Of a DNA stretch of 64,000 nt, positions 4,050 to 20,062 are shown one piece after another; within the stretch, counting starts at the first letter, position 1, and each line of letters begins with the position of its first letter. Origin of the DNA: Streptomyces sp. NBC_00654 (GTDB taxonomy: Bacteria; Actinomycetota; Actinomycetes; Streptomycetales; Streptomycetaceae). The position numbers were made by a program, and so were the translations under genes. The notes beneath the pieces were generated by a model. That model was not told the origin of the DNA. It did not search any database and saw nothing but the letters and a program-made list of their open reading frames with translations. Location: assembly GCF_026341775.1 (NCBI RefSeq), contig NZ_JAPEOB010000001.1:2170001-2234000 (forward strand), written 5' to 3'.

Positions 4050-4249
4050 CCCCTTCCGCCCGCCCCTTCCACCCCGCCCCGTCCCGTCGCTTCCATCCCG
4101 CCCCGGGCCCTTACCGACGCCGCGAGCGTGCGTGCTGGGCGGCGCGGCGGGGTAGGGGCTGCCGGGAGGGGCGCTGGACCGGCGGGCGCCCGGTGCACAC
4201 CGTTCGGGGCCCGGCCGGTGGCCGGACCCCCGCCCCTGGAGGTTCTTCC

Positions 4250-6610
4250 GTGCCGCTCACATCCGCCGCCTGGTCGCGCCGCGCCTTCCTGGCCACCGGC
4301 GGCGCCACCGCCCTCGGTGCCGCCCTGCCCGGACCGGCCCTTGCCGCCGGTCCCCGGGACGCCCTCGCCGACGAGGAGTTCGACGCCCTCCGCCTGCGCT
4401 GGACCGGCCTGGCGCTCGGCACCGGCTACGACGCCGCCGCCGAGCCCTACGCCTCCCGCCTCACCGCGACCGGTGAACGCGCCGCCGGGTTCGCCGCGTC
4501 GATGAGCCCGGCCCCCGGATCCCTCTGGCCCGACCGGACCTTCGACCCGCCGTCCGGCATCACCCAGAGCTACAGCCGCCTGTGGACCATGACCCAGGCC
4601 TACGCCCAGCCCGGCACCGGGCACACGGGCGACACCGCTCTCCTCGCCGCCGTCGTACGCGGCCTCGACCACCTCGCCGCCACGGTCTACAACCCTTCCA
4701 CCACCCGCTACGGGAACTGGTGGGAGTGGCAGATCGGCAGCCCCCGCCTCCTCATGGACATCGTCGCCGTCCTGCACGACCACCTCACGCGGGAGCAGCG
4801 GCAGGCCGCCTGTGCCGCCGTCGACCACTTCATCCCGGACTCCGTGCTCCGCGACTACAGCGGCATCTCCACCGGCGCCAACCGGGTCGACCTCTGCCGT
4901 TCCGTCGCCCTGCGCGGCATCCTCGGCCGGGACCCCGCCAAGATCGCGCTGGCCCGTGACGCCCTCTCGCCCGTCTTCCCGTACGTGACGAAGGGCGACG
5001 GGCTCTATGCCGACGGCTCCTTCGTCCAGCACACCTGGGTCGCCTATTCGGGGACGTACGGGCAGGTCATGCTCGACGGCCTCGGCCGGCTCTTCGCGCT
5101 GCTGGCCGGGTCCTCCTGGGCGGTCACCGACCCCGCCCGGCAGACCGTCCTCGACAGCGTGGAGCACGCCTACGCGCCCCTGATCTACAACGGCCTGGCG
5201 ATGGACAGCGTCAACGGCCGAGCCATCAGCCGGGGCCTGCTCAAGGGTGACGAACGCCGGGTGCTGCGGGGCGACCACTTCCACGGGCAGGGCCTGATCG
5301 CGGCCATCGCGCTGCTCGCGGGCGGGGCGTCCGCCGCCGAGCGCGACCGGTGGAACGCCATGGTCAAGGGCTGGATCGAGCGGGACACCACCTCCCCGGT
5401 CCTGACCGCCCCGCAGTTCGACGTCGCCGACCTCGCCCGGCTGCACGCCGCCGCGGCGGCCCCCGTCCCCGCCGCCCCCGAACCGGTCGGCCACACGCTG
5501 TTCGCGGCCATGGACCGGGCCGTGCACCGCCGCCCCGGCTGGGCCGCGAACATCTCCATGTCCTCGGAGCGCATCAGCTCCTACGAGTGCGGCAACGGCG
5601 AGAACCCGCGCGGCTGGCACACCGGGGCGGGGATGCTCTACTGGTGGCCGGGGGCAGAGCGGGGCGACCAGTACACCGACTGGTTCTGGCCGACCGTCGA
5701 CTGGTACCGCCTGCCCGGGATCACCGTCTCCACCAAGCGCCTCCCCGACCGGGCGGGCGGCGAATGGGGCGAACCCCGGCCCGCGGCCCGCTGGACCGGC
5801 GGCGCGCACGACGGCGAGTTCGCCGCGGTCGGGCAGCACGTCAAGGGCCTCGGCTCCACCCTGGAGGCCCGTAAGTCCTGGTTCTGCGCCGCCGACGCGG
5901 TCATCTGCCTGGGCGCGGGCATCACCGCCACCGACGGGGTGCCCGTCGAGACGGTCGTCGACAACCGCAACCTCGGCCCGGACGGCGCCGCCCACCCCTT
6001 CACCCTCGACGACCGGGAACGCCCGCGCTGGGCCCACCTGGAGGGACACGGCGGCTGGGTCCTGCCCGGTGGCGCCGCGCTGCGCACGCTGCGCGAGGCC
6101 AGGACCGGGGCCTGGGCCGACATCAACACCACCAGCTCGACCGCCCGCGAGACCCGCCACTGGCAGACGCTCTGGCTCGACCACGGCACCGACCCGGCCG
6201 ACGCCGGTTACGTCTACCTGCTGATGCCGGGCGCCGACCGGCGCACGGTGGCCGCCCGGGGGGCCGACCGCGGCTGGCTGAAGGTGCTGGCCAACACGGC
6301 CGCGGCGCAGGCCGTCGCCGTGCGCTCACTGGGCCTGACCGCCGCCAATTTCTGGCAGGCCGGTGCGGCGGGACCGCTTTCCGCCACGGCTCCGGCGAGC
6401 GTGCTTGTCAGACGGGGCCCGCGCTCCACTACGCTCTGTGTCAGCGGACCCGACCGGTCCGGCACCCCGGTGGACGTGGTCTGGAACCGGCCGGTACGTA
6501 CAGTGGTCCGCGCCGACGCGGGAATCAAGGTCCGGGCCACCGGGAACCGGCTCGTCCTGCGCGCCGAACCCGGCACCGAAGGCGCCGTGCTGCGCTGCGA
6601 AGTGCGCTGA
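4250..6610 (+). CDS. Secreted polysaccharide lyase family 8 (hyaluronate/chondroitin/xanthan lyase type)
   Basis: Beta-eliminating lyase for acidic polysaccharides such as hyaluronan, chondroitin or xanthan; 786 aa. GTG 4250 is chosen because GGAGG at 4238-4242 sits 7 bases upstream and the protein then begins with a twin-arginine signal (SRRAFLATGG) ending near ALA; the frame is open further upstream. The alpha/alpha toroid contains WWEWQIG, a catalytic-type stretch with His and Tyr (QHTWVAYSGTYGQ), and Arg motifs (NGRAISRG). The beta domain contains NGENPRGWHTG. This arrangement is typical of PL8. Substrate cannot be decided from sequence alone; the neighbouring GH101 enzyme favours host-glycan-type substrates. 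Tat export implies folding before secretion. Confidence 0.9.
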   Translation: MPLTSAAWSRRAFLATGGATALGAALPGPALAAGPRDALADEEFDALRLRWTGLALGTGYDAAAEPYASRLTATGERAAGFAASMSPAPGSLWPDRTFDPPSGITQSYSRLWTMTQAYAQPGTGHTGDTALLAAVVRGLDHLAATVYNPSTTRYGNWWEWQIGSPRLLMDIVAVLHDHLTREQRQAACAAVDHFIPDSVLRDYSGISTGANRVDLCRSVALRGILGRDPAKIALARDALSPVFPYVTKGDGLYADGSFVQHTWVAYSGTYGQVMLDGLGRLFALLAGSSWAVTDPARQTVLDSVEHAYAPLIYNGLAMDSVNGRAISRGLLKGDERRVLRGDHFHGQGLIAAIALLAGGASAAERDRWNAMVKGWIERDTTSPVLTAPQFDVADLARLHAAAAAPVPAAPEPVGHTLFAAMDRAVHRRPGWAANISMSSERISSYECGNGENPRGWHTGAGMLYWWPGAERGDQYTDWFWPTVDWYRLPGITVSTKRLPDRAGGEWGEPRPAARWTGGAHDGEFAAVGQHVKGLGSTLEARKSWFCAADAVICLGAGITATDGVPVETVVDNRNLGPDGAAHPFTLDDRERPRWAHLEGHGGWVLPGGAALRTLREARTGAWADINTTSSTARETRHWQTLWLDHGTDPADAGYVYLLMPGADRRTVAARGADRGWLKVLANTAAAQAVAVRSLGLTAANFWQAGAAGPLSATAPASVLVRRGPRSTTLCVSGPDRSGTPVDVVWNRPVRTVVRADAGIKVRATGNRLVLRAEPGTEGAVLRCEVR

Positions 6611-6798: not shown

Positions 6799-8382
6799 AT
6801 GACCGTTGTGGAGGAAACCCCGGGTGAGCCGACCGACACCCGTGGCCGGGTGGCCGAACTGCTGGCCCTGCGTGAGCAGGCGAGGCGTGGACCGAGCGAC
6901 CGGGCGACCGAGGCGCAGCACGCCAAGGGGAAGCTGACGGCGCGTGAGCGTATCGGGCTGTTGCTGGATCCGGGTTCGTTCAAGGAGGTCGAGCAGCTGC
7001 GCCGGCACCGGGCGACCGGTTTCGGGCTGGAGGCGAAGAAGCCGTACACGGACGGTGTGATCACGGGGTGGGGCACGGTCGAGGGCCGGACGGTCTTCGT
7101 GTACGCGCATGATTTCCGGATCTTCGGCGGGGCGCTGGGCGAGGCCCATGCCACGAAGATCCACAAGATCATGGACATGGCGATCTCGGCGGGTGCGCCG
7201 CTGGTGTCGCTGAACGACGGCGCGGGTGCCCGGATCCAGGAGGGTGTCTCGGCGCTCGCGGGGTACGGGGGGATCTTCCAGCGGAACACGCGGGCCTCGG
7301 GTGTCATCCCGCAGATCAGTGTGATGCTCGGCCCGTGCGCGGGCGGCGCGGCCTACAGCCCGGCGCTGACGGACTTCGTGTTCATGGTCCGCGAGACCTC
7401 GCAGATGTTCATCACGGGTCCGGACGTGGTGAAGGCGGTCACCGGTGAGGAGATCTCCCAGAACGGTCTCGGCGGCGCGGACGTGCACGCGGAGACCTCG
7501 GGCGTCGCGCACTTCGCGTACGACGACGAGGAGACCTGCATCGCCGAGGTCCGGTACCTGATCGGGATGCTGCCGTCCAACAACCGGGAGAACCCGCCCA
7601 CCGCCGGGAGCGGCGACCCGGCCGACCGGCGCGGCGACGTCCTGCTGGACCTGGTCCCCGCCGACGGCAACCGCCCCTACGACATGCACAAGGTCATCGA
7701 GGAACTCGTCGACGACGGCGACTACCTGGAGATCCACGAACGCTGGGCCACCAACATCATCTGCGCCATGGCCCGCATGGACGGCGCCGTCGTCGGCATC
7801 GTGGCCAACCAGCCGCAGTCGCTGGCCGGGGTCCTGGACATCGAGGCGTCCGAGAAGGCCGCGCGATTCGTCCAGATGTGTGATGCGTTCAACATTCCCA
7901 TCATCACTCTCCTGGACGTACCCGGCTTCCTCCCCGGCGTCGATCAGGAGCACGGTGGGATCATCCGGCACGGCGCGAAGCTCCTCTACGCGTACTGCAA
8001 CGCCACCGTGCCCAGGATCTCGCTGATCCTGCGCAAGGCCTACGGAGGCGCCTACATCGTCATGGACAGCCAGTCCATCGGCGCCGACCTCACCTACGCC
8101 TGGCCCACCAACGAGATCGCCGTCATGGGCGCCGAAGGTGCCGCCAACGTCATCTTCCGCCGCCAGATCGCGGACGCCGAGGACTCCGAGGCCATGCGGG
8201 CCCGCATGGTCAAGGAGTACAAGGCCGAGCTGATGCACCCCTACTACGCCGCGGAGCGCGGTCTGGTCGACGACGTCATCGACCCGGCCGAGACCCGCGA
8301 GGTACTGATCGCCTCGCTCGCGATGCTCCGCAACAAGCACGCCGACCTGCCGTCCCGTAAGCACGGCAACCCGCCGCAGTAG
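6799..8382 (+). CDS. accB: Acyl-CoA carboxylase, carboxyltransferase beta subunit
   Basis: Transfers the carboxyl group from carboxybiotin on the alpha subunit to acetyl- or propionyl-CoA, giving malonyl- or methylmalonyl-CoA for fatty acid and polyketide synthesis. At 527 aa it is full length for the AccB/PccB family. It has two crotonase-like halves, with the glycine-rich oxyanion turns GPCAGGAAYSP in the first and RKAYGGAYIVM in the second. Asp430 (in IGADLTYAWP) appears to align with the position that sets acyl-chain preference in the S. coelicolor PccB structure; this is alignment from memory. The gene precedes a small epsilon subunit, as in the accB-accE locus. The biotinylated alpha subunit is not in this window. 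No SD sequence is visible; the mRNA is probably leaderless. Confidence 0.95.
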   Translation: MTVVEETPGEPTDTRGRVAELLALREQARRGPSDRATEAQHAKGKLTARERIGLLLDPGSFKEVEQLRRHRATGFGLEAKKPYTDGVITGWGTVEGRTVFVYAHDFRIFGGALGEAHATKIHKIMDMAISAGAPLVSLNDGAGARIQEGVSALAGYGGIFQRNTRASGVIPQISVMLGPCAGGAAYSPALTDFVFMVRETSQMFITGPDVVKAVTGEEISQNGLGGADVHAETSGVAHFAYDDEETCIAEVRYLIGMLPSNNRENPPTAGSGDPADRRGDVLLDLVPADGNRPYDMHKVIEELVDDGDYLEIHERWATNIICAMARMDGAVVGIVANQPQSLAGVLDIEASEKAARFVQMCDAFNIPIITLLDVPGFLPGVDQEHGGIIRHGAKLLYAYCNATVPRISLILRKAYGGAYIVMDSQSIGADLTYAWPTNEIAVMGAEGAANVIFRRQIADAEDSEAMRARMVKEYKAELMHPYYAAERGLVDDVIDPAETREVLIASLAMLRNKHADLPSRKHGNPPQ

Positions 8383-8809: not shown

Positions 8810-9391
8810 TCAGCGCAGGCGGGCCATCAGGGCGTGCTCGACCAGCGTGATGAGCGCGCTCTTGGCGTCGGCGCGGTGGCGGGCGTCCGTCGTGAGGATC
8901 GGGGTATCGGGGCCGATCTGGAGTGCTTCGCGTACTTCGTCGGGGGTGTAGGGCTGGTGTCCGTCGAAGCCGTTGAGGGCGATGACGAAGGGGAGGCCGC
9001 TGTTCTCGAAGTAGTCGACGGCGGGGAAGCAGTCGGCGAGGCGGCGGGTGTCGACGAGGACGACGGCGCCGATGGCGCCGCGGACCAGGTCGTCCCACAT
9101 GAACCAGAACCGGTCCTGTCCGGGGGTGCCGAAGAGGTACAGGATGAGGTCCTGGTCCAGGGTGATGCGGCCGAAGTCCATGGCCACCGTGGTGGTGGTC
9201 TTGTCCCCGGTGTGGGTCAGGTCGTCGATGCCCGCGGAGGCGGACGTCATCACGGCTTCGGTACGCAGCGGATTGATCTCCGAAACGGCACCGACAAACG
9301 TGGTCTTACCCACGCCGAAGCCCCCTGCCACCACGATCTTCGCCGAGGTAGTGGAGCGGGCCGCTCCGCCGCTAGAGCTTGCGAAGTCCAC
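8810..9391 (-). CDS. cvnD: Conservon GTP-binding protein CvnD (conservon proximal to accE)
   Basis: Small Ras/MglA-like GTPase, 193 aa, last gene of a cvnA-B-C-D operon. In conservons it is thought to act at the membrane with the sensor-like CvnA, with CvnB and CvnC as partners. Visible motifs: P-loop GGFGVGKTT (residues 23-31), a switch-II segment FGTPGQ in place of the usual DxxGQ, and NGFDG in place of NKxD, both characteristic of this subfamily. The start overlaps the cvnC end by 20 bp, implying translational coupling. Over 350 bp (8907-9256) the DNA is identical to the paralogue at 14199-14548, while both flanks diverge; this suggests recent gene conversion. By S. coelicolor synteny this would be the Cvn2 member. 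Confidence 0.93.
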   Translation of the reverse strand: MDFASSSGGAARSTTSAKIVVAGGFGVGKTTFVGAVSEINPLRTEAVMTSASAGIDDLTHTGDKTTTTVAMDFGRITLDQDLILYLFGTPGQDRFWFMWDDLVRGAIGAVVLVDTRRLADCFPAVDYFENSGLPFVIALNGFDGHQPYTPDEVREALQIGPDTPILTTDARHRADAKSALITLVEHALMARLR

Positions 9392-10031
9392 TGAGCACCC
9401 TTTCGAGCAGTGTCACATCTGGCTGACCGCCGGCGGCCTCGTCGCCGCCGGGCTGATGGATAGCGACGAGTCCCGCCTCGGCCAGGTCGGCGACGAGGAT
9501 CCGGGCAACGCCGAGGGGGATCGAGAGAAGGGCCGAAATCTCGGCTACCGACTTGATCTCGATGCAGAGCCGGCAGATCCGCTGGTGCTCGGGCAACTGC
9601 CCTTGCAGCCGGGACGGATCGGCCGTGGTGCTGACCAGCGCCTCGATGGCGAGCTGGTATCGCGGCCGGGTCCGGCCGCCTGTCATGGCGTACGGACGGA
9701 CCAGCGGGTTGGGCCCGGAGTGCGCGGCGGGCTCGGGAGCCCGCTGCTGCTGCACCGGCTGAATGCGCGGCTGTTGCGGTTGCTGGGGCTGTGGGGACTG
9801 CTGGGGCCACCCCGAACCCGGGTGCTGCGGGGGCCAGTCGGACCCCTGCGTGCTCCAGGGCTGCTGCTGCGGCTGCCGGTACGGCTGGTGGAACGGCTGC
9901 TGGTACTGCTGGTGGGGCTGCTGCGCACCCTGTCTGCTGGGTGCGGAGGGGAAGTTGAACCGGTTGTCACCGTGCTCACCCGGAACGCGCCGGCCACCGT
10001 CATATGGGTGCCCGTCTGTGGGTGCTGCCAC
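9372..10031 (-). CDS. cvnC: Conservon DUF742 protein CvnC
   Basis: DUF742 protein, third gene of the conservon; 219 aa from GTG 10031, chosen because GGAGGAGG lies 4 bases upstream on the minus strand (an open frame continues to 10079). The first ~115 residues are low complexity, rich in Gln, Pro and Ser. The conserved winged-helix-like DUF742 domain occupies the C-terminal half, beginning near LVRPYAMTGGRTRP and continuing through PLGVARILVADLAE. It probably bridges the roadblock protein and the GTPase; the biochemical role is not settled. It overlaps cvnD by 20 bp and lies 90 bp after cvnB. Confidence 0.9.
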   Translation of the reverse strand: MAAPTDGHPYDGGRRVPGEHGDNRFNFPSAPSRQGAQQPHQQYQQPFHQPYRQPQQQPWSTQGSDWPPQHPGSGWPQQSPQPQQPQQPRIQPVQQQRAPEPAAHSGPNPLVRPYAMTGGRTRPRYQLAIEALVSTTADPSRLQGQLPEHQRICRLCIEIKSVAEISALLSIPLGVARILVADLAEAGLVAIHQPGGDEAAGGQPDVTLLERVLSGLRKL

Positions 10032-10121
10032 GTTTCCTCCTCCGCCTGCCGGTCGCCGATCCCAGTGGGGCCGCGCCACCGCACTTTATGGCGCGGTGGC
10101 GAGAAACGCACTGTCTGTCTA

Positions 10122-10544
10122 CTAGTTAAGAAGACTTCCCTGGAGCTCTGCCCGGAGGTCCGGGGTCAGCACACCCCCCGCGCGGTCGACCAGAAGGGCC
10201 ATTTCGTACCCGACCAGACCGATATCGGCATCCGGGTGGGCGAGGACAGCAAGGGAAGAACCGTCAGAGATGGACATAATGAAGAGGAATCCACGCTCCA
10301 TCTCCACAACGGTCTGGTTCACGGCGCCGCCCTCGAAGATCCGGGAGGCACCCGCGGTCAGCGACGTCAGACCGGAGGCGACGGCCGCCAGCTGGTCGGC
10401 GCGGTCGCGCGGGAATCCCTCGGACATGGCCAGCAGGAGTCCGTCGGCGGAGACCACCACCGTGTGCGACACCCCGGGGGTGTTGTCCACGAAGTTGGTG
10501 ATCAACCAGTTGAGATTCTGCGCCGCCTGGCTCATCGGGCTCAC
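10122..10544 (-). CDS. cvnB: Conservon roadblock/LC7 protein CvnB
   Basis: 140-aa roadblock/LC7 (MglB-like) protein, expected to dimerise and to modulate nucleotide turnover of the partner GTPase CvnD. Start GTG 10544 lies one base after the cvnA stop and is preceded by AGGAG; an internal ATG at 10535 is the alternative. The core includes VVVSADGLLLAMSEGF and the C-terminal helix. It differs from the second conservon copy at only four residues, and 95 bp (10321-10415) are identical in DNA to 15405-15499. Confidence 0.92.
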   Translation of the reverse strand: MSPMSQAAQNLNWLITNFVDNTPGVSHTVVVSADGLLLAMSEGFPRDRADQLAAVASGLTSLTAGASRIFEGGAVNQTVVEMERGFLFIMSISDGSSLAVLAHPDADIGLVGYEMALLVDRAGGVLTPDLRAELQGSLLN

Positions 10545-10545
10545 A

Positions 10546-13500
10546 CTAACGCTCCTGGTTGTAGGTATTACTTGTGTCCGACCCCGCGCTGCGTCCCCGC
10601 TGGATGCCGCGTCGCAGGTTGCTCAACCTGCCACGGACGTCCTCGGGGGCGCGGGAGACCTGTGGGCCGCCCTGCTGGGTCTGCTCCGCCGTGCCCTCGA
10701 CCAGATTGGCCTTGGGTACACGCCGGGGAAGACCGGAAGGGGTGATCCCGCCCGCCTTCGGTTCACGGAGCTTCTCGGCCCGCTCCCAGCGCTCGTCGTT
10801 CGTCGAGCGCCAGTCGTCCGGGCCGTCCCCGTCCGCCTGCGCGGCCTGCTGCTGCTCCTGCGGCGGCTGCGACTGCGGCTGTTCCTGCTGCGGCTGCGGC
10901 TGCTGTCGGGCTGCGACGGGCTGACCGTTTCCGCGGCCGGTGGGCTGCCAGTGCTGCTGGCCTCCCCGGCGCGGCAGACCGGCTTCGGTCAGCTCGTGGC
11001 CGTCGTCCGGAGCAGACCCCGGACGATCGAAGCCTACGCGCTCCCGAGGTTCCGCGGGGGCGCTGGGAAGAGATTCCGCTTCGAGCTGGGCAACCGGCTC
11101 ATAAGTGCCCTGGTACCCACTCTGATCAGGCCAGTCATCCTGGTGGGGCTGGTCGTTCCCGGAGCCGTACGGAGTCGCATATGCCGCCTCCGCATAGCCT
11201 TCCTGCGGGGACGGGTGGAGCTGCCGCGCCTGGCGCGGGTAGCCGTCCCCGGTGCCGTACGGCTCGTAGGGGCTCTCGTGGGAGCCCTCCTCGTAGCCCT
11301 GCCGGCCCGGCTCCTGCGCGTACTGCTCCGGCGCGTACGGCCCCTGGGGGTACGGCTCGTGGCCGTACGGGTCCCGGCCGTACTGCCCCTGGCCGTACGG
11401 GTCCTGCGCGTACGGCTGCTGGTCCTGGCCCTGCGGCTGCTGGGACTCCAGCGCGGCCCGGCGCTCCTCCCGCATCAGCGAGCGGTTGACCGGGTCCAGC
11501 CGCTCCGGGTCCGCCGGTGTCTCGTACCGGGAATCGTCGAAGCCGAGCTCGGCCGCCGTACGGATCTGCGGCTGCTGCGGGGCGGACGGGAAGGACTGCT
11601 GCTCGGGGATGATCGAGGAGACGGTGAAGTCGCCCTGCGCGGCTCCGGGTTCGCCGCCGCCACCGTGGGTGATGGCATCCGGGAGCATGACCAGCGAGGT
11701 GGTCCCGGCCTGCTCCCCCGAGGGGCGCAGCTGGACCCGGATGCCGTGCCGGTCGGAGAGCCGGCCGACCACGAACAGGCCCATGCGCTGGGACACCGCG
11801 GCGTCCACGGTCGGCGGGTTGGCCAGCTTGTGGTTGATGTCCGCGAAGTCCTCGGGGGTGAGACCGATCCCCTTGTCGTGGATCTCGACCATCACCCGGC
11901 CGTCCGGCAGCCGGGTCGCGTTGACGCGGACCTTGGTCTGCGGCGAGGAGAACGTGGTGGCGTTCTCCAGCAGCTCCGCCAGCAGGTGCACCAGGTCGGT
12001 GACGGCCTGGCCGTGGATCTCGCTCTCGGGTACGCCGGTGAGCTCGATGCGCTCGTAGGACTCCACCTCGGAGGAGGCCGCCCGCAGCACGTCGACCAGG
12101 GGTACCGGCTGGTTCCAGCGGCGGCCGGGCTCCTCGCCCGCGAGGACGAGGAGGTTCTCGCCGTTGCGGCGCATCCGGGTCGCCAGGTGGTCCAGCTTGA
12201 ACAGGCTCTCCAGCTGGTCCGGGTCGGCCTCGCTGTTCTCCAGGCCGGTGATGAGGGTCAGCTGGCCCTCGATGAGCGACTGGTTGCGGCGCGAGAGGTT
12301 GGTGAAGATCGCGTTGACGTTGCCCCGCAGCATGGCCTGCTCGGCGGCGAGCCGGACGGCCTCGCGGTGCACCTGGTCGAAGGCCCGGGCGACCTCGCCG
12401 ATCTCGTCCTGGGTGTTGACCGGGATCGGCTGGACCCGGGTGTCGACCCGGCCGGGATCGGTCCGCGACAGCTGGTCGACCAGCATCGGCAGCCGCTGTT
12501 CGGCGATGGCGAAGGCGGCGGTACGCAGCCGGCGCATCGAGCGGCTCATCTGCCGGGCCATGAGCCCGGCCAGCACGAAGGCGGCCAGCAGCGCGACGAC
12601 CACGACGGCGCCGTTGACGATGGCATCCCTCTTCGCCCCGGCGGAGATGTCCGCCGCCTCGGTCACGGCCTTGTCGACCAGCTCGTCCTCGACCGTGGCG
12701 TAGCCCTCGAACTTGGCCGTGGCGGCCGCCATCCAGGTCTCGGGGGTGATCCCCTTCGCCTTCAGCTTCTCGGGGGTCCGGCCCCGGCCGATCTCCTCGG
12801 CCATGCCGTCGAAGACCGATCCGTCGATGCTCGGCGGCGCCACGAACGGCTTGCCCGCCGCCTTCGCCTCGGCCTCGGCGGTCCTGATCTGCCTGGCGCC
12901 CTCGGCGGCCTTGCCCGCCATGACCTCCTTGAGCCGGTCCACATCCGCCTGGGTGCCGCCCGAGTTGAACTCGCCGAGCGCGATCTGCTCCAGATAGTTG
13001 TACGAGCCGAAGGCCGTGACCTGCTCGTCGAACGTGCCGGGACGCTGGCTGGGACGTACCAGCAGATGCATGCCGATGGAGCGCTGAAGCGATTCTGCAG
13101 CCTTGGCCAGCTCGACCGCGTAGACGGTGCGGCCGTAGCTGGTGATGTTGCCGGTACCGAGTCCGAGCTCGTTGGAGAACTCCATCAGCGAGTGCTGGAC
13201 CTGGGTGTAGCCCTCTTCGGTCTTCACCGGGTCCAGCGCCTCGGAATAGGCGGCCTTGCGCAGCCCGGGGAGTTTGGGCTCCTCGGCCTTGAAGAGCTTG
13301 AGACGACGCTCCAGGCCCTGCTTCGCGGGCATGTCCTTCACGGCGGCGTCGAACTTCGTCCGGGCGTCCTCCGTGGTGGCACGGGCCTCTTCGACGACGG
13401 CCGCGGAGCGCTCGTCGGACAGCAGCGGCTGCGCGGTGAGGTCGCGCTCGTTGAGCAGCGCCTGCCCGTAGTCCGAGGCCGCGCGCACGATCAGCGCGGT

Positions 13501-13755
13501 CTTCTCGGCGTCCTGCGCCTCGCTCCAGGTGTCGACCGACTCCCTCACCTGGAAGCCGCCCATGACCAGGCCGACGAGTACGGGGATGAGGAGGATCGCG
13601 TTCAGCCGGGTGGCCACCCGCCAGTTGCGCGGGGCCAGCCGGCTGGTGCTGCCGACCGGCTCGGGAGCGGTCGCGGGCGCCGCCGCGGCACGCGGCGGCG
13701 GGGTGAAGTTCCCCCGCTCGGGCTGCGCCGCGGAGCCCTCGTTGCTTCGCCTCAC
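10546..13755 (-). CDS. cvnA: Conservon sensor histidine-kinase-like protein CvnA with NIT-type sensor
   Basis: Membrane sensor of the conservon, about 1,069 aa from GTG 13755 (a GTG at 13782 is also open). A first membrane segment follows the LAPRNWRVATRL stretch. A large extracytoplasmic region resembles nitrate/nitrite-sensing (NIT) domains, then come a second membrane segment and a HAMP-like linker. A HATPase domain has N box ELLENATTF and G1 box HDKGIGLTPED. The C-terminal third is a long disordered tail rich in Gln, Pro, Tyr and Gly, ending in the conserved GLPRRVPKANLVEGT and LSNLRRGIQRGR segments found at the end of both CvnA copies. The ligand is unknown. It is the first gene of the operon, so its promoter lies in 13756-13920. 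Confidence 0.92.
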   Translation of the reverse strand: MRRSNEGSAAQPERGNFTPPPRAAAAPATAPEPVGSTSRLAPRNWRVATRLNAILLIPVLVGLVMGGFQVRESVDTWSEAQDAEKTALIVRAASDYGQALLNERDLTAQPLLSDERSAAVVEEARATTEDARTKFDAAVKDMPAKQGLERRLKLFKAEEPKLPGLRKAAYSEALDPVKTEEGYTQVQHSLMEFSNELGLGTGNITSYGRTVYAVELAKAAESLQRSIGMHLLVRPSQRPGTFDEQVTAFGSYNYLEQIALGEFNSGGTQADVDRLKEVMAGKAAEGARQIRTAEAEAKAAGKPFVAPPSIDGSVFDGMAEEIGRGRTPEKLKAKGITPETWMAAATAKFEGYATVEDELVDKAVTEAADISAGAKRDAIVNGAVVVVALLAAFVLAGLMARQMSRSMRRLRTAAFAIAEQRLPMLVDQLSRTDPGRVDTRVQPIPVNTQDEIGEVARAFDQVHREAVRLAAEQAMLRGNVNAIFTNLSRRNQSLIEGQLTLITGLENSEADPDQLESLFKLDHLATRMRRNGENLLVLAGEEPGRRWNQPVPLVDVLRAASSEVESYERIELTGVPESEIHGQAVTDLVHLLAELLENATTFSSPQTKVRVNATRLPDGRVMVEIHDKGIGLTPEDFADINHKLANPPTVDAAVSQRMGLFVVGRLSDRHGIRVQLRPSGEQAGTTSLVMLPDAITHGGGGEPGAAQGDFTVSSIIPEQQSFPSAPQQPQIRTAAELGFDDSRYETPADPERLDPVNRSLMREERRAALESQQPQGQDQQPYAQDPYGQGQYGRDPYGHEPYPQGPYAPEQYAQEPGRQGYEEGSHESPYEPYGTGDGYPRQARQLHPSPQEGYAEAAYATPYGSGNDQPHQDDWPDQSGYQGTYEPVAQLEAESLPSAPAEPRERVGFDRPGSAPDDGHELTEAGLPRRGGQQHWQPTGRGNGQPVAARQQPQPQQEQPQSQPPQEQQQAAQADGDGPDDWRSTNDERWERAEKLREPKAGGITPSGLPRRVPKANLVEGTAEQTQQGGPQVSRAPEDVRGRLSNLRRGIQRGRSAGSDTSNTYNQER

Positions 13756-13922
13756 TGACCAACAACCTCTCGGCGTCGGCACCCACGTTGTGCCGGATTT
13801 CGTTCAGGGCCGTACTACTCGGTAGTTCGTCGCATTGCAGCACGGGGACCGGCCACGTTCCAAACACTCGGAATCGGCCATTCCGAGTGGTCCAGGCCTC
13901 AGATAAAACGGGCATAAAGAGC

Positions 13923-13946
13923 GAGCCCCGTCAAAAGGCGGGGCTC
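13923..13946 (-). terminator. Hairpin between the two conservons
   Basis: 8-bp perfect stem GAGCCCCG (13923-13930) with CGGGGCTC (13939-13946). It lies downstream of the second conservon on its reading strand and just upstream of the first cvnA promoter region, so it probably insulates the operons. Confidence 0.6.
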
Positions 13947-14020
13947 ATGTGAGCGCAGTGGCACCGGTCGGATGCGTCGGGTGTTGTTTCGTGGGCAATT
14001 CTCTGTCGAAACGTTATGAA

Positions 14021-14062
14021 CGCGGGGGCGGATCGTGTCAAAGGACACAGGTCGCCCCCGCG
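14021..14062 (-). terminator. Terminator of the second conservon operon
   Basis: Compound hairpin: 10-bp perfect outer stem (14021-14030 with 14053-14062) and 5-bp inner stem GTGTC/GACAC (14035-14039 with 14044-14048), 40 bp past the cvnD stop at 14102. With the hairpin at 13923-13946 it accounts for most of the 346-bp gap; the rest should hold the promoter of the downstream cvnA. Confidence 0.8.
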
Positions 14063-14101
14063 TGACTACAGCAACTTCCGTATGCGGTTAACGACTTACG
14101 T

Positions 14102-14683
14102 CTACTTCAGGCGGGCCATCAGGGCGTGCTCGACCAGGGTGATCAGACCGCTCTTGGCGTCGGCGCGGTGGCGGGCGTCCGTCGTGATGATGGGCGCGTC
14201 GGGGCCGATCTGGAGTGCTTCGCGTACTTCGTCGGGGGTGTAGGGCTGGTGTCCGTCGAAGCCGTTGAGGGCGATGACGAAGGGGAGGCCGCTGTTCTCG
14301 AAGTAGTCGACGGCGGGGAAGCAGTCGGCGAGGCGGCGGGTGTCGACGAGGACGACGGCGCCGATGGCGCCGCGGACCAGGTCGTCCCACATGAACCAGA
14401 ACCGGTCCTGTCCGGGGGTGCCGAAGAGGTACAGGATGAGGTCCTGGTCCAGGGTGATGCGGCCGAAGTCCATGGCCACCGTGGTGGTGGTCTTGTCCCC
14501 GGTGTGGGTCAGGTCGTCGATGCCCGCGGAGGCGGACGTCATCACGGCCTCGGTGCGCAGCGGGTTGATCTCCGAAACGGCTCCGACGAACGTGGTCTTG
14601 CCCACGCCGAAACCGCCCGCCACCACGATCTTCGCCGAGGTGGTGGCACGGCCCGTACCGCCGTTAGAGCTTGCGAAGTCCAC
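14102..14683 (-). CDS. cvnD: Conservon GTP-binding protein CvnD (second conservon)
   Basis: 193-aa GTPase paralogous to the protein at 8810-9391; only the first ~15 residues and about four C-terminal positions differ. It has the same P-loop GGFGVGKTT and the same atypical FGTPGQ and NGFDG motifs. Bases 14199-14548 are identical to 8907-9256 at every codon position, although the neighbouring cvnC and cvnA genes have diverged strongly. That pattern fits gene conversion or strong selection for an interchangeable GTPase. It overlaps cvnC by 20 bp. By synteny it corresponds to the Cvn1 member in S. coelicolor. Confidence 0.93.
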   Translation of the reverse strand: MDFASSNGGTGRATTSAKIVVAGGFGVGKTTFVGAVSEINPLRTEAVMTSASAGIDDLTHTGDKTTTTVAMDFGRITLDQDLILYLFGTPGQDRFWFMWDDLVRGAIGAVVLVDTRRLADCFPAVDYFENSGLPFVIALNGFDGHQPYTPDEVREALQIGPDAPIITTDARHRADAKSGLITLVEHALMARLK

Positions 14684-15071
14684 TGAGCACCCTTTCGAGC
14701 AGTGTCACATCCGGCGCGCCGCCGGCCTCTCCATTACCCGGCTGGTGGATGGCCACCATGCCGGCTTCCGCCAGGTCCGCGACAAGGATCCGGGCCACAC
14801 CGAGCGGCATGGACAGCAGCGCCGACACCTCGGCCACCGACTTGACCTCACGGCACAGGTGGCAGATCCGCTGGTGCTCGGGGAGCAGCGTTCCCAGATG
14901 CGCCGGGTCGGCCGTGGTGCTGACCAGTGCCTCTATGGCGAGCTGGTAGCGCGGCCGGGTCCGGCCACCGGTCATGGCGTACGGACGTACCAGCGGCTGG
15001 TCGCCTTCACCGTCGTACGACGCGTGATGCAGTGCGCCGTACGGATCGTGTGAGGCGGGTGGCGGGGTCAT
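14664..15071 (-). CDS. cvnC: Conservon DUF742 protein CvnC (second conservon)
   Basis: 135-aa DUF742 protein. ATG 15071 has GGAGG 4 bases upstream. Unlike the 219-aa paralogue it lacks the long Gln/Pro-rich N-terminal extension and begins almost directly at the domain (LVRPYAMTGG, PLGVARILVADLAE). A Cys pair (HLCREVK region) sits where the paralogue has RLCIEIK. It overlaps cvnD by 20 bp and follows cvnB after 134 bp. Confidence 0.9.
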   Translation of the reverse strand: MTPPPASHDPYGALHHASYDGEGDQPLVRPYAMTGGRTRPRYQLAIEALVSTTADPAHLGTLLPEHQRICHLCREVKSVAEVSALLSMPLGVARILVADLAEAGMVAIHQPGNGEAGGAPDVTLLERVLSGLRKL

Positions 15072-15205: not shown

Positions 15206-15628
15206 CTAGTGGAGCAGACTGCCCTGGAGCTCGGCGCGGAGGTCGGGCGTGAGGACGGTACCCGCGCGGTCGACCAGGAGGGCCATCTCGTACCCGACCA
15301 GACCGATGTCGGCGTCCGGGTGGGCGAGAACGGCCAGTGAGGAACCGTCCGAGATGGACATCAGGAAGAGGAATCCGCGCTCCATCTCCACCACCGTCTG
15401 ACTGACGGCGCCGCCCTCGAAGATCCGGGAGGCACCCGCGGTCAGCGACGTCAGACCGGAGGCGACGGCCGCCAGCTGGTCGGCGCGGTCGCGCGGGAAA
15501 CCCTCCGACATCGCGAGCAGCAGTCCATCGGCGGAGACCACCACCGTGTGGGACACCCCTGGGGTGTTGTCCACGAAGTTGGTGATCAGCCAGTTCAGAT
15601 TCTGCGCGGCCTGACTCATGGGGCTCAA
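15206..15628 (-). CDS. cvnB: Conservon roadblock/LC7 protein CvnB (second conservon)
   Basis: 140-aa roadblock/LC7 protein, 136 of 140 residues identical to the copy at 10122-10544. The likely start is TTG 15628, directly after the cvnA stop with AGGAG 6 bases upstream; the paralogue has GTG at the same place. ATG 15619, three codons in, is the alternative but is further from the SD. Predicted role: homodimer acting on CvnD, in the MglB-MglA manner. Confidence 0.92.
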   Translation of the reverse strand: MSPMSQAAQNLNWLITNFVDNTPGVSHTVVVSADGLLLAMSEGFPRDRADQLAAVASGLTSLTAGASRIFEGGAVSQTVVEMERGFLFLMSISDGSSLAVLAHPDADIGLVGYEMALLVDRAGTVLTPDLRAELQGSLLH

Positions 15629-18600
15629 CTAACGCTCCTGCTGGTGAGTGGGGCCGAGTTGGAAACTGCCGGTCGACTGGCCGTTGTTGGCCTGCCGACC
15701 CTGCTGGATGCCCCGGCGGAGATTGGTCAGACGCCCGCGCACGTCATCGGGCGCACGCGAAACCTGAGGTCCGGTCTGGTGATTCTGCTGCTGAGCGGTG
15801 CCCGGCACCAAATTGGCACGCGGGACACGGCGAGGAAGTCCGGAGGTGGTGACTCCGCCCGCCGCGGGCTTCTTGACCCGTTCGGCCTGCCGGACGAGTT
15901 CGTCGTTGGGTGAGGGGCGCCAGGAACCGGTGGCGCCGTTGTCGGCACCCTCACGCCGGGGCATGGGAGGAACAGGGCCCCCGGCGTCCGGAGCTGCGGG
16001 TGCCTGCGGCTCGGCGGCGGGCTGCTGCTGGCCGCCCTGCTGCGGGCCGTGGAACCAGTTCGTCTCCAGCGTGTCGTACAGCGGCGTACGTCCGTCCCCC
16101 GGACCGGCCGGCGGCAGCGCCTCCGGCTGCGGCTGCTGCGGCAGCATCGGACGGTGCGGTGCCTCACCGGCGGGAGCCGCCGACGGACGCGGTACGCCGA
16201 AGTCGCTGTCGTCCCCGCCGCGCTGACGCGGCGCGGGCAGTCCCTGCTCCGGCGGGCGCGGCGCGTTGAAGTCCGGGCGGGCGAACTGCGCGGTGCTCGC
16301 CGGGTCCTGGCCCAGCGGCGCCTGCGGGAACTGCGGTGCCTGGGGCGACTGCGGTGCCGAGAAGTCCGGGCGGGCGAACTCGGAGGTGGCGCCCGGTCCC
16401 TGCCGGTCGTCCATCGAGGGCCGCCGGGCGAGCGGCGCGTCGAACGGCTGGTTCCGGCCCGGTCCGGCGTTCGGGCCGGTCGGCCGCGCGAACTGGCCGG
16501 TGGTCTCGGGCTCCTCGTGGCCGCGCGGCGCGTCCAGCGGGTTGCGCCGCGGCGCTCCCTGCTCCTCGACGCCCCAGCTGGTGGCCTGCGGGCGCTGCGG
16601 CTGCGGGTTGCCCCCGGGCAGCTCGGCACGCGGACCGCCGGGCGGCGGCAGCTGACGGCCGGGGCCGCCGGGCTGCTGGAGGCCGCCCTGGCCGCCGGGA
16701 CCGTTCTGCTCCTGGCGGGACTGCTGGGACTGCTGGGGCTGGGGCGCGTTCGGACCGTTCTGGCCCTGCTGCGCGAACGGGTCCTGCGCGAACGGGTCCT
16801 GGCCGAAGGCGTCCTGCTGGGCGAACTGGCCCTGCCGGGCGTTCGGGCCCTGCGGAGCCGGACCGCCGTGGCCGAACAGGTTGGGCTGACCCGATTCCGT
16901 ACGGCCGGGGTTCTCGCCCTGGTTGCCGCGGGCGCCCAGCCGGGCCCCGCCGCCGAAGGCGCTGGAGAGGCCGCCGCCGTGACGCTGCGGCTCCGGGCGC
17001 GGGAAGTCCTGCGGACCGCCCTGCGGAGCCTGGTTCGGCCGGCCGGGGCTCTGCGGCCCGTTGTTCTGCTGGTCGGCGTTGTGCTGGGGCTGCGGCTGGC
17101 GCGGCCCGGTGTCGCGCGAGGGCAGCGCGGCCCGCGGGCCGGAGCCCGCGCCGACCTGTCCGCGCGGGGTGCCGGGACCGGCCCCGAGCCCCTTCGCGGG
17201 CGGGGCGGAAGGACCGCCGCCGAGGCCCGGACGCTGGGCGTTGCCCGCACCGTTGCCCGGACCCGCGCCGGCCAGCAGGCCGCCGGGGGCGCCGGAGTGC
17301 TGGCCGGGTCCCTGCTTGGGCACCGGCTGCTTGCCGCCGTGCGCGACATCGACGGGCAGCATGACCAGCGCGGTCGTACCGCCGGAGTCGGAGGGCCGCA
17401 GCTGGATCCGGATGCCGTGACGCAGGGACAGCCGGCCGACCACGAACAGGCCCATGCGGCGGGAGACCGAGACATCCACGGTGGGCGGAGCGGCGAGCCG
17501 CTCGTTGATCGCGGCGAGGTCCTCGGGGGAGAGGCCGATACCGGTGTCGTGGATCTCGACGAGCACCCGCCCGTCGGGCAGCGCGTGACCGGTGACCCGG
17601 ACCTTCGTCTGCGGCGAGGAGAACGACGTGGCGTTCTCCAGCAGTTCGGCGAGCAGGTGCACGAGGTCGTTGACGACGCGGCCCGCGACCTCGGTGGCGG
17701 GCACCGCGGCCAGTTCGATGCGCTCGTACTGCTCCACCTCGGAGGCGGCGGCGCGGAGCACGTCGACCAGCGGCACCGGGCGGGTCCACCGGCGGCCGGG
17801 CTCCTCACCGGCGAGGACCAGCAGGTTCTCACCGTTACGGCGCATGCGGGTGGCGAGGTGGTCGAGCTTGAAGAGGGAGGACAGCTGGTCCGGGTCGGCC
17901 TCGCGCGACTCCAGCTCGGAGATGAGCGAGAGCTGACGCTGGATGAGGCCCTGCGAACGGCGCGAGAGGTTGGTGAACATCGCGTTGACGTTGCCCCGCA
18001 GCAGGGCCTGTTCGGCGGCGAGCCGGACGGCCTCGCGGTGCACGTCGTCGAAGGCCGCGGCCACCTGGCCGATCTCGTCCCGGGAGTGCACACCGACCGA
18101 CTCGACGGAGGTGTCGACATCCTGCGGGTCGGTCTCGGAGAGCTGCTTGACGAGCTCGGGCAGCCGGTCCTGCGCAACACGCGTAGCGGTGTCCTGGAGG
18201 CGCCGCAGCGAGCGGATCATGGACCGCGCCACGACGAAGGCGCCGACCAGCGAGACACCGAGCACGAGCAGGATGACCGCACCGTTGACGATCGCCTCGC
18301 GCTGCGAGGCCTCGCGCAGCTCACGGGCCTTGGCCTCCATGTCGCTGAGGAGGGTGGCCTCGATCGTCTGCATCGCGTTGATCTTGGTGGAGCTCTGGTC
18401 GTACCAGTCGAGGTACGAGCGGACCTTGGTCCCCTCGATGCCGGACGTGGTGTCCAGGACCCGCTTGGCGTACATGTTCGCGGCGTTGATCTCGGGGTTG
18501 CCGTTGTCCAGCGGCGCCGTCAGTTCGGCGGCGCTGTCGCCGGTGGTCCCGTAGATCGTGTTGAACGACGTGAGGGCGCGGGATTCCTTCGCGAGCGCGT

Positions 18601-19483
18601 TCTGGCCGAACTGCCGGTCGTTCGGGTTGAGGTGCGGCTCCTTGACGCTGCCGCCGGGCAGCGCCGCGGCGATGATCGCGCGCTGGACCGAGGCGTACTC
18701 CTTGGCGGAGGAGAACGCCGCCAGGGCACGGGTCCGCTTGATCATCTCCGGGTTGCTGGTCGCCTGCGCCATGTCCTGCGAGAGGCTCAGCAGCGAGGTG
18801 ATCAGCTGGCTGTACTGGTCGATCGTGTTGAGACTCGGGGAGCCCTCCGCGTACGCCGTCTTGCGGATCGTACGGATGTCGCCGAGCAGCGAGGCGATCT
18901 GGGCGACGCTCGCGTGGATGCCTTCGAGGGCCTCGTCGCCCTGGGCGTCACCGATGGCGTTCGTGGCGTCGAAGAACGCGTCCTTGGCCCGGTCGGTCTT
19001 CTTCCGGGGTTCGGTGACCTTGTAGTCGGTGGCCTTCGACTTGTTGGACAGCGGACCGGCCGACTGGTCGCGCTCCACCTGGAGCGCCTGGGCGAGCGTC
19101 GTCGCCTGCTTGGTCATCCGGGTCAGCAGCTGCATGTGCTCCAGCTGCTGCATGTCGGTCATGGACTCGTTGATCCGGAGTCCGCCCAGCGTGGTCGCCG
19201 CGACGACGGGGAGGGCGAGGAGGGAGACCAGACGGGTGCTGATGCGCCAGTTGCGGAGCGCTACCCGCGAGCCGGTGCTGATGGGGCCGCGGGGCTTGAG
19301 AGGAGTGGCCGGCTCGGCGCCGCCGCTCGTCGTCGAACCCGAGCGCTGCGCGCGGTCGCCGCTGTCACCGGCTGCGGCCGGCCCGGGGTTCTGGGCGTGC
19401 TGGGGGGAGGAACCGCGGTCGGTCCCGCCGCGCGGCTCCTGTTCCGCCGGAGCACTGCCATCCCTCTTGAAACGTCCCTGCAC
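15629..19483 (-). CDS. cvnA: Conservon sensor histidine-kinase-like protein CvnA (second conservon)
   Basis: About 1,284 aa from GTG 19483 (protein starts VQGRFKRDG); an open frame to 19765 lacks the character of coding sequence. Domain order: short Gly/Ser-rich cytoplasmic N-terminus, membrane segment, NIT-like extracytoplasmic sensor, membrane segment (near AIVNGAVILLVLG), HAMP-like linker and HATPase (ELLENATSF, HDTGIGLSPEDL). A disordered tail of about 500 residues rich in Gln, Gly, Pro and Ala follows, ending in the conserved GLPRRVPRANLVPGT and LTNLRRGIQQGR segments. The kinase core is close to the other CvnA, but the sensor is strongly diverged, so the two conservons should read different signals. 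First gene of its operon. Confidence 0.92.
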   Translation of the reverse strand: MQGRFKRDGSAPAEQEPRGGTDRGSSPQHAQNPGPAAAGDSGDRAQRSGSTTSGGAEPATPLKPRGPISTGSRVALRNWRISTRLVSLLALPVVAATTLGGLRINESMTDMQQLEHMQLLTRMTKQATTLAQALQVERDQSAGPLSNKSKATDYKVTEPRKKTDRAKDAFFDATNAIGDAQGDEALEGIHASVAQIASLLGDIRTIRKTAYAEGSPSLNTIDQYSQLITSLLSLSQDMAQATSNPEMIKRTRALAAFSSAKEYASVQRAIIAAALPGGSVKEPHLNPNDRQFGQNALAKESRALTSFNTIYGTTGDSAAELTAPLDNGNPEINAANMYAKRVLDTTSGIEGTKVRSYLDWYDQSSTKINAMQTIEATLLSDMEAKARELREASQREAIVNGAVILLVLGVSLVGAFVVARSMIRSLRRLQDTATRVAQDRLPELVKQLSETDPQDVDTSVESVGVHSRDEIGQVAAAFDDVHREAVRLAAEQALLRGNVNAMFTNLSRRSQGLIQRQLSLISELESREADPDQLSSLFKLDHLATRMRRNGENLLVLAGEEPGRRWTRPVPLVDVLRAAASEVEQYERIELAAVPATEVAGRVVNDLVHLLAELLENATSFSSPQTKVRVTGHALPDGRVLVEIHDTGIGLSPEDLAAINERLAAPPTVDVSVSRRMGLFVVGRLSLRHGIRIQLRPSDSGGTTALVMLPVDVAHGGKQPVPKQGPGQHSGAPGGLLAGAGPGNGAGNAQRPGLGGGPSAPPAKGLGAGPGTPRGQVGAGSGPRAALPSRDTGPRQPQPQHNADQQNNGPQSPGRPNQAPQGGPQDFPRPEPQRHGGGLSSAFGGGARLGARGNQGENPGRTESGQPNLFGHGGPAPQGPNARQGQFAQQDAFGQDPFAQDPFAQQGQNGPNAPQPQQSQQSRQEQNGPGGQGGLQQPGGPGRQLPPPGGPRAELPGGNPQPQRPQATSWGVEEQGAPRRNPLDAPRGHEEPETTGQFARPTGPNAGPGRNQPFDAPLARRPSMDDRQGPGATSEFARPDFSAPQSPQAPQFPQAPLGQDPASTAQFARPDFNAPRPPEQGLPAPRQRGGDDSDFGVPRPSAAPAGEAPHRPMLPQQPQPEALPPAGPGDGRTPLYDTLETNWFHGPQQGGQQQPAAEPQAPAAPDAGGPVPPMPRREGADNGATGSWRPSPNDELVRQAERVKKPAAGGVTTSGLPRRVPRANLVPGTAQQQNHQTGPQVSRAPDDVRGRLTNLRRGIQQGRQANNGQSTGSFQLGPTHQQER

Positions 19484-20062
19484 TAGCGTCGCAACCTCTG
19501 GACCAGGCGTCCCTCCGCCAGGCGGGCGGGACGGTGTCGGCGTCGTGGGGAGCTGGACGCGCCCCATGGTGGTCGTGAGTGACCGGCGATCTCCCCCTTC
19601 CGCCGCCACTCGGCGCTGCGTTGCGCCCCTGCGCGCCGGCCTGAAACCCGCGGCGGTGCGTGGAATTCCAGCACAGTGGGGGATCTCCAACAAGGCCCAA
19701 GTTTTGTGCCACGACCCGGGTGACCCGTTGTGATTGCCGAGTAACAAGCAGTGGAGAGTGTTCATGGTTAAATCGGACTATTGCGGATGACTTGATCACG
19801 AACGAGGGGTGTCCCAGTCGACATGATCAGGAGCGGAATGGCTCATTCAGTGGTGCAATGTCCGTTTCCTGGGCCGCGATTGGGTGCCCGGAATGAGGCA
19901 ATTGTCGATAAGTTCGTGAGCAAACTCACATGATGATCGTCGTCTCTTCTGTGCTTCTGCGGGGAATCGGATGTTTAGCCTGACGCTTTACACGGATGGC
20001 GAATCCGACAACCCGGTGCCCCCCCACGGGTGGCGCCCCCACCGACAAGGTCCGGACGGCAG
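19484..20062. other. Intergenic region upstream of the second cvnA
   Basis: A 579-bp divergent control region with lower GC than its surroundings between about 19730 and 19990, consistent with promoters for cvnA (minus) and the small protein gene (plus). A 5-bp inverted repeat GTGAG/CTCAC lies at 19916-19929. No further gene was recognised. Confidence 0.5.

Follow-up and report, generated by a model that had tools for sequence, protein, structure and literature searches.

How can two GTPase genes on one chromosome share a long identical core when the operons that carry them have otherwise grown apart? The 64,000-nucleotide stretch of Streptomyces sp. NBC_00654 analysed here (hereafter the window; contig NZ_JAPEOB010000001.1, positions 2,170,001 to 2,234,000, in a host genome of 9.6 Mb and 15 contigs) contains two conservons in tandem, both on the minus strand, and the last gene of each is cvnD. 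Coordinates are window positions; gene ends are those of the longest open reading frames, and the starts of cvnA and cvnC are uncertain. The downstream copy (cvnD-dn, 8810..9391, minus strand) and the upstream copy (cvnD-up, 14102..14683, minus strand) each encode a Ras-like GTPase with a match to PF03029. An earlier inspection of the letters alone (the sequence-only reading) had claimed that 8907-9256 and 14199-14548 agree at every position, and the two minus-strand tracts indeed show 0 mismatches over 350 bp at an offset of 5292. We are highly confident that the locus is an old tandem pair whose cvnD genes are repeatedly subject to intrachromosomal gene conversion, and that it represents long-lasting concerted evolution.

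The two cvnD genes of the window differ at 28 bases, every one of them at the gene ends outside the identical tract: 12 fall among the 94 bases of the 3' end (8813-8906) and 16 among the 135 of the 5' end (9257-9391). Nucleotide identity between the copies is 95.2% for cvnD, 89.3% for cvnB, which the sequence-only reading had not mentioned, 82.0% for cvnC and 62.5% for the cvnA core, which bears out its remark that the edges of cvnD and the linked cvnC and cvnA genes differ. Similarity ends at the last cvnD codon and on the other side tapers off within cvnC, except for a 47-bp block spanning the cvnC/cvnD overlap (9373..9419 = 14665-14711, minus strand), seen in the mismatch list and the alignments. 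This block is near-identical in the other aligned genomes as well, and its identity probably results from double coding. Among 150 polymorphic sites in nine near genomes, with 28 discordances between upstream and downstream copies, the longest concordant run comprises 80 sites; none of 200,000 permutations gave a run as long (the largest was 59), and the analytic bound is 1e-9. The tracts are mosaic with discrete borders, as is characteristic of gene conversion.

For a wider comparison, loci were drawn from three sources: a cvnD search among named genomes (79 loci; the best 80 of 583), relatives (15 loci), and a selection for a similar upstream cvnA without regard to cvnD similarity (40 loci). 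Removing 8 outgroups (L084-L090, L092) and one duplicate (L105, equal to L031) and including the window left 126 loci. Of these, 110 had two scorable copies of cvnA, 115 of cvnB, 117 of cvnC and 112 of cvnD. The 14 loci left out of the cvnD counts were dropped for contig ends (L018, L023, L063, L070, L091, L115, L118, L119), N runs at cvnD or close to it (L067, L111, L121), a split cvnD match (L056) or apparent deletions (L114, L135). Tandem conservons are present in the Streptomyces- or Streptacidiphilus-labelled loci where the stretch is long enough, and the order is common across genomes.

Trees of the four genes tell different histories. In FastTree trees of the 70 genomes that had each of the four genes in two copies (from 87 loci; 140 rows), the two copies of one genome are sisters in 32 cases for the cvnD core, 12 for cvnB, one for cvnC and none for cvnA. 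The rows misplaced from a clean split into upstream and downstream copies number 50 for cvnD, 18 for cvnB, 3 for cvnC and 0 for cvnA. An approximately unbiased test on 24 of 103 genomes with all four gene pairs, made on a quick tree in which three groups of identical rows were unconstrained, rejected a single upstream clade for the cvnD core (p 2e-6). The sequence-only reading had proposed just this check beforehand, and its expectation that cvnD copies pair by strain and cvnA copies by locus describes the result well. According to the unbroken cvnA split and the common gene order, the duplication is older than the species compared.

Silent sites point the same way. Over the 112 genomes, divergence at fourfold sites of cvnD is 0.198 for a genome's own pair vs 0.391 for upstream and downstream copies taken from different genomes; this own-pair value was reached by 0 of 20,000 permutations, and three sets chosen separately (64, 14 and 33 genomes) showed the effect too, again with 0 of 20,000 permutations each. 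The corresponding own-pair and between-genome values are 0.368 vs 0.473 for cvnB, 0.379 vs 0.403 for cvnC and 0.374 vs 0.386 for cvnA. Orthologues of cvnD diverge by 0.392 and 0.368 (other genes range from 0.30 to 0.44), and because the between-genome value for upstream against downstream copies equals these, the cvnD loci keep almost no memory of their own. For cvnA (0.326, 0.318) and cvnC (0.356, 0.297), orthologues are closer than paralogues. At 71% G+C, fourfold sites that have diverged by about 0.4 are probably nearly saturated. At these silent sites, cvnD paralogues within a genome are closer than orthologues between genomes: the own paralogue is closer than any upstream orthologue in 68 of the 112 genomes and closer than any downstream orthologue in 45. 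Likewise, the upstream cvnD finds its closest downstream copy in its own genome in 87 of 112 cases, and the converse is true in 76.

When did the last exchange in the window take place? The nearest relative found, L110 (genome G031), is 96% identical over a 2-kb piece of cvnA. Within the tract, the window and this relative differ at 9 sites in both copies, at 1 site in a single copy (in L110) and at 0 locus-specific sites, and the two cvnD ends carry 10 and 10 locus-specific sites. Over residues 46-161, none of 66 fourfold sites differs between the window's own copies, vs 9/66 between its upstream copy and the downstream copy of L110 and 10/66 between its downstream copy and the upstream copy of L110. 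The last conversion in the window therefore occurred well after the split from L110, whose copies are likewise homogenised, over a sequence of their own. The sequence-only reading had offered recent or ongoing conversion, and both terms fit because conversion recurred across many lineages.

The longest identical run between cvnD copies is at least 100 bp in 81 of 112 genomes, at least 200 bp in 46 and at least 350 bp in 23. Runs of at least 100 bp cover mid-gene most often (63 of the 81 genomes), falling to 5 and 10 genomes at the ends. As to partners, the window's cvnD genes showed no sign of exchange with conservons elsewhere in their genome, the longest exact run that they share with eight other cvnD loci being 11-26 bases. 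A search of plasmid records matched 115, two at 80-90% and 113 at 60-80% identity; the 20 of the 115 matches listed are 65.9-73.0% identical.

The identity, the conflict between trees, the timing relative to L110, the gradient toward the gene ends and the absence of the downstream cvnA from two genomes, described below, are what a mechanism has to account for. We propose homologous recombination, presumably of the RecA type, between direct repeats about 5.3 kb apart. It would copy stretches of one cvnD over the other, with either copy conceivably acting as donor. Homogenised stretches are commonest in the middle of the gene and rarer toward the ends, where locus-specific bases persist, and the window bears the trace of a recent event 350 bp or more in length. 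The process affects cvnB less often, cvnC clearly in one lineage and cvnA in none seen. The same exchange may also resolve as a deletion that fuses both cvnD genes.

Two of the 126 loci match this last outcome, having a single cvnD left and lacking the downstream cvnA, cvnB and cvnC. In L114 (draft genome G139), the cvnD at 5255-5833 starts like an upstream copy and ends like a downstream one; next to it comes the carboxyltransferase gene that also flanks the window's downstream conservon. In L135 (G351, a single contig with N runs), a cvnD with downstream-type start and end follows the upstream cvnC from 5075; a carboxyltransferase gene flanks it too, and the cvnD is shortened by about 50 internal codons. 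No downstream cvnA was found elsewhere in G139 or G351 at E 1e-40, the control G031 being positive at 88%, and the cvnD counts agree. These two loci appear to be the deletion outcome of the same recombination.

Several observations weigh against recurrent conversion or limit its reach. The cvnD core clusters by locus in L030, L037, L076, L100 and L102, where conversion has lapsed or was never fixed; it is neither universal nor continuous, because a few genomes retain this arrangement. No clear core conversion is seen in 18 of the 112 genomes, and only 48 of the 112 fall under the 1st percentile of between-genome values. A small own-genome excess exists in cvnA and cvnC as well, mostly beyond the permutations; it probably reflects shared codon usage, and a similarly small part of the cvnD effect may have the same origin. 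The direction of transfer was sought in near relatives and none was readable, L110 being homogenised too. The deletions in L114 and L135 could still be assembly errors, given the draft state of the one and the N runs of the other. Finally, because conversion follows baseline similarity, the choice of genes may be mechanical.

Why, then, are some genes of the pair converted and others spared? Conversion is seen in fewer lineages for cvnB than for cvnD, in one clear case for cvnC and in none for cvnA. The cvnB copies are 95-100% identical at the nucleotide level in the scattered lineages L051, L058, L061, L068, L069, L081 and L083 (the median of 66 pairs is 86.9%). In L083 they are 100% identical, with cvnC at 75.7%; L068 has 99.8% for cvnB, 96.7% for cvnC and 96.9% for cvnD, with cvnA at 67.6%. 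Residues that are strongly locus-specific number 14 in cvnC (80 genomes), 6 in cvnB and 4 in cvnD (79 genomes each), those of cvnD lying at its ends. The explanation that we favour, as somewhat likelier to be right than wrong, is a neutral by-product: conserved proteins keep the DNA similar enough to recombine, and the less conserved neighbours fall below the threshold. Baseline nucleotide identity along the genes is 86-91% for cvnD, 81-91% for cvnB, 77-83% for cvnC and 39-83% for cvnA, which the order of conversion (cvnD, then cvnB, then cvnC and cvnA) roughly tracks. The core of the window's tract, with 0 amino-acid differences from L110, fits this explanation. Not everything does, however, as the cvnA kinase region and cvnC escape conversion at a baseline equal to that of the end of cvnB.

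That discrepancy speaks for a second explanation, in which conversion is selected because two sensors need one interchangeable pool of GTPase and GTPase-activating protein (GAP). At a like baseline, divergence is reduced by 17% in cvnB residues 91-135 (81%), by 3% in the cvnA kinase region (residues 400-549, about 82%) and by 0% in cvnC residues 41-80 (82%). For mycobacterial homologues, excerpts of PMC13343842 describe the CvnB homologue as a GAP and the CvnC homologue as a likely guanine nucleotide exchange factor (GEF) of the GTPase, and report that these homologues form a signalling complex, with CvnD under the control of the GAP and the GEF. With cvnD and cvnB homogenised and the homologues acting as GAP and GEF, the GTPase and sometimes the GAP are common in sequence to both loci, and the sensor and the putative GEF are not. 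Against selection stand the highest baseline similarity where conversion is strongest, the chance that cvnB events begin in the more similar first third of the gene, and the behaviour of the protein itself. Over CvnD residues 18-185, the amino-acid difference of own pairs rises with silent divergence from 0.3 to about 5-6 of 168 and then reaches a plateau; between genomes, about 6.5 of 168 residues differ. Because of this plateau, purifying selection alone keeps the CvnD copies alike. The proposal of the sequence-only reading that a single GTPase would thereby be kept in the service of two sensors is only partly supported, most of the likeness being due to purifying selection: silently diverged copies still differ at only about 5 of 168 residues. 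We regard selected conversion as a tentative, minority explanation. If there is a benefit, namely one interchangeable pool of GTPase and GAP read by two sensors, it is probably mild, and it is no less likely that conversion is a neutral consequence of how strongly the protein is conserved.

Explanations without any exchange fare far worse. Selection at the protein, codon or RNA level could in principle keep the copies the same, and CvnD is a very conserved protein both between genomes and in silently diverged pairs. Yet cvnD fourfold sites diverge between genomes (0.37-0.39 for orthologues) and not within them, and the 9 tract sites that separate the window from L110 changed in both copies. 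Constraint fails for the silent sites, since these diverge normally between genomes, and the sequence-only reading had named cvnD copies clustering with their orthologues, together with synonymous sites equally conserved across species, as the finding that would favour it; we consider it very improbable. Equally improbable is an identical repeat created or collapsed by the assembler. Contigs end inside cvnD in L023, L063, L115, L118 and L119, and N runs lie there in L111 and L121, so the suspicion is natural, and such breaks are also what is expected of a near-identical repeat. However, 26 of 27 single-contig genomes yielded two cvnD copies and 10 of these 26 show runs of at least 200 bp, the tracts of each genome have base differences of their own between locus-specific flanking ends, and contig breaks would hide converted pairs and not create them. 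Converted cases may be under-counted in draft genomes. A recent tandem duplication of the entire conservon in each lineage, suggested by two similar operons that adjoin, can practically be dismissed, as cvnA and cvnC are old and cluster by locus (0 and 3 of 140 rows misplaced), the order is common across genomes, and the whole-unit likeness of a recent duplicate is missing from the window at cvnA and cvnC.

Both copies have the order cvnA-B-C-D with NIT, HAMP and HATPase domains, PF03259, PF05331 and PF03029, as a conservon should. In the downstream conservon, cvnA, a sensor kinase with NIT, HAMP and HATPase (10546..13782, longest open reading frame), is followed by the roadblock gene cvnB (10122..10544, PF03259) and the DUF742 gene cvnC (9372..10079, PF05331; longest open reading frame, start uncertain). 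The upstream conservon likewise comprises the sensor kinase gene cvnA (15629..19765, NIT, HAMP and HATPase, longest open reading frame), cvnB (15206..15628, roadblock, PF03259) and cvnC (14664..15071, DUF742, PF05331), all on the minus strand. The downstream cvnC frame has a long Gln/Pro-rich N-terminal extension that the upstream one lacks. On the plus strand, the downstream conservon is flanked by a carboxyltransferase gene of the acyl-CoA carboxylase kind (6799-8379), and a family 8 polysaccharide lyase gene (4193-6607) is also found there. The spacer between the conservons (13760-14105) contains hairpins, one of them terminator-like (13922..13947, minus strand; consensus match only, plus fold). 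These hairpins hint at separate transcription units; the fold of the spacer RNA (z -1.93) and the terminator scan (6 terminator-like matches vs a shuffled mean of 3.3) are weak signals, and a promoter scan gave 0 promoter-like matches. Since the S. coelicolor genes are numbered CvnA1 = SCO5544 and CvnA2 = SCO5540 (excerpts of PMC9739842), the pair is most likely cvn1 (upstream) and cvn2 (downstream). In S. venezuelae, the direct BldC target named in the available text of PMC6428758 is cvn1, not cvn2.

As a rule, one would expect paralogous signalling systems to drift apart and become insulated. In this pair, some components of each system diverged, and the switch gene keeps being copied from locus to locus. 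If this were true in function, the twin might mask single cvn1 or cvn2 mutants, and the pair would be a natural test of the sharing of a small GTPase and its GAP between sensors. It is conceivable, though rather doubtful, that cvn1 and cvn2 form one bipartite G-protein module, with two sensor and GEF inputs (cvnA, cvnC) and a common GTPase and GAP (cvnD, cvnB), kept interchangeable by selection through gene conversion since before the split of Streptomyces and Streptacidiphilus. In practice, cvnD trees are unusable for tracing orthology at the cvn1/cvn2 locus, and short-read assemblies can break at the cvnD pair.

The S. coelicolor cvn1/cvn2 pair (excerpts of PMC9739842) is, like that of the window, an adjacent pair of conservons and presumably the same locus. 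Adjacent duplicated conservons are mentioned in PMC4316618, the available text of which does not use the term gene conversion. In a literature search that covered papers outside subscription, "conservon" was nowhere paired with "gene conversion" or "concerted evolution", and no account of exchange between cvn1 and cvn2 of S. coelicolor turned up. Long-lasting concerted evolution has been described for 26 prokaryotic genes (excerpts of PMC6053082), all seven archaeal ones being from methanogens; these resemble cvnD in phylogenetic pattern and conserved synteny, and they often encode proteins of one complex. No conservon gene is among the 24 of the 26 named in those excerpts (19 bacterial and 5 of the 7 archaeal). 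The closest parallel is tufA/tufB (excerpts of PMC5485169 and PMC6053082), also a pair of GTPase genes homogenised at silent sites, recurrently and over long times. Unlike tufA/tufB, cvnD encodes a signalling GTPase and lies in tandem operons whose other genes diverged, with the repeats about 5.3 kb apart; many of its tracts are incomplete, and in some lineages conversion appears to have ceased. The cvnD pair adds a new example, from a signalling system, to tuf-like concerted evolution.

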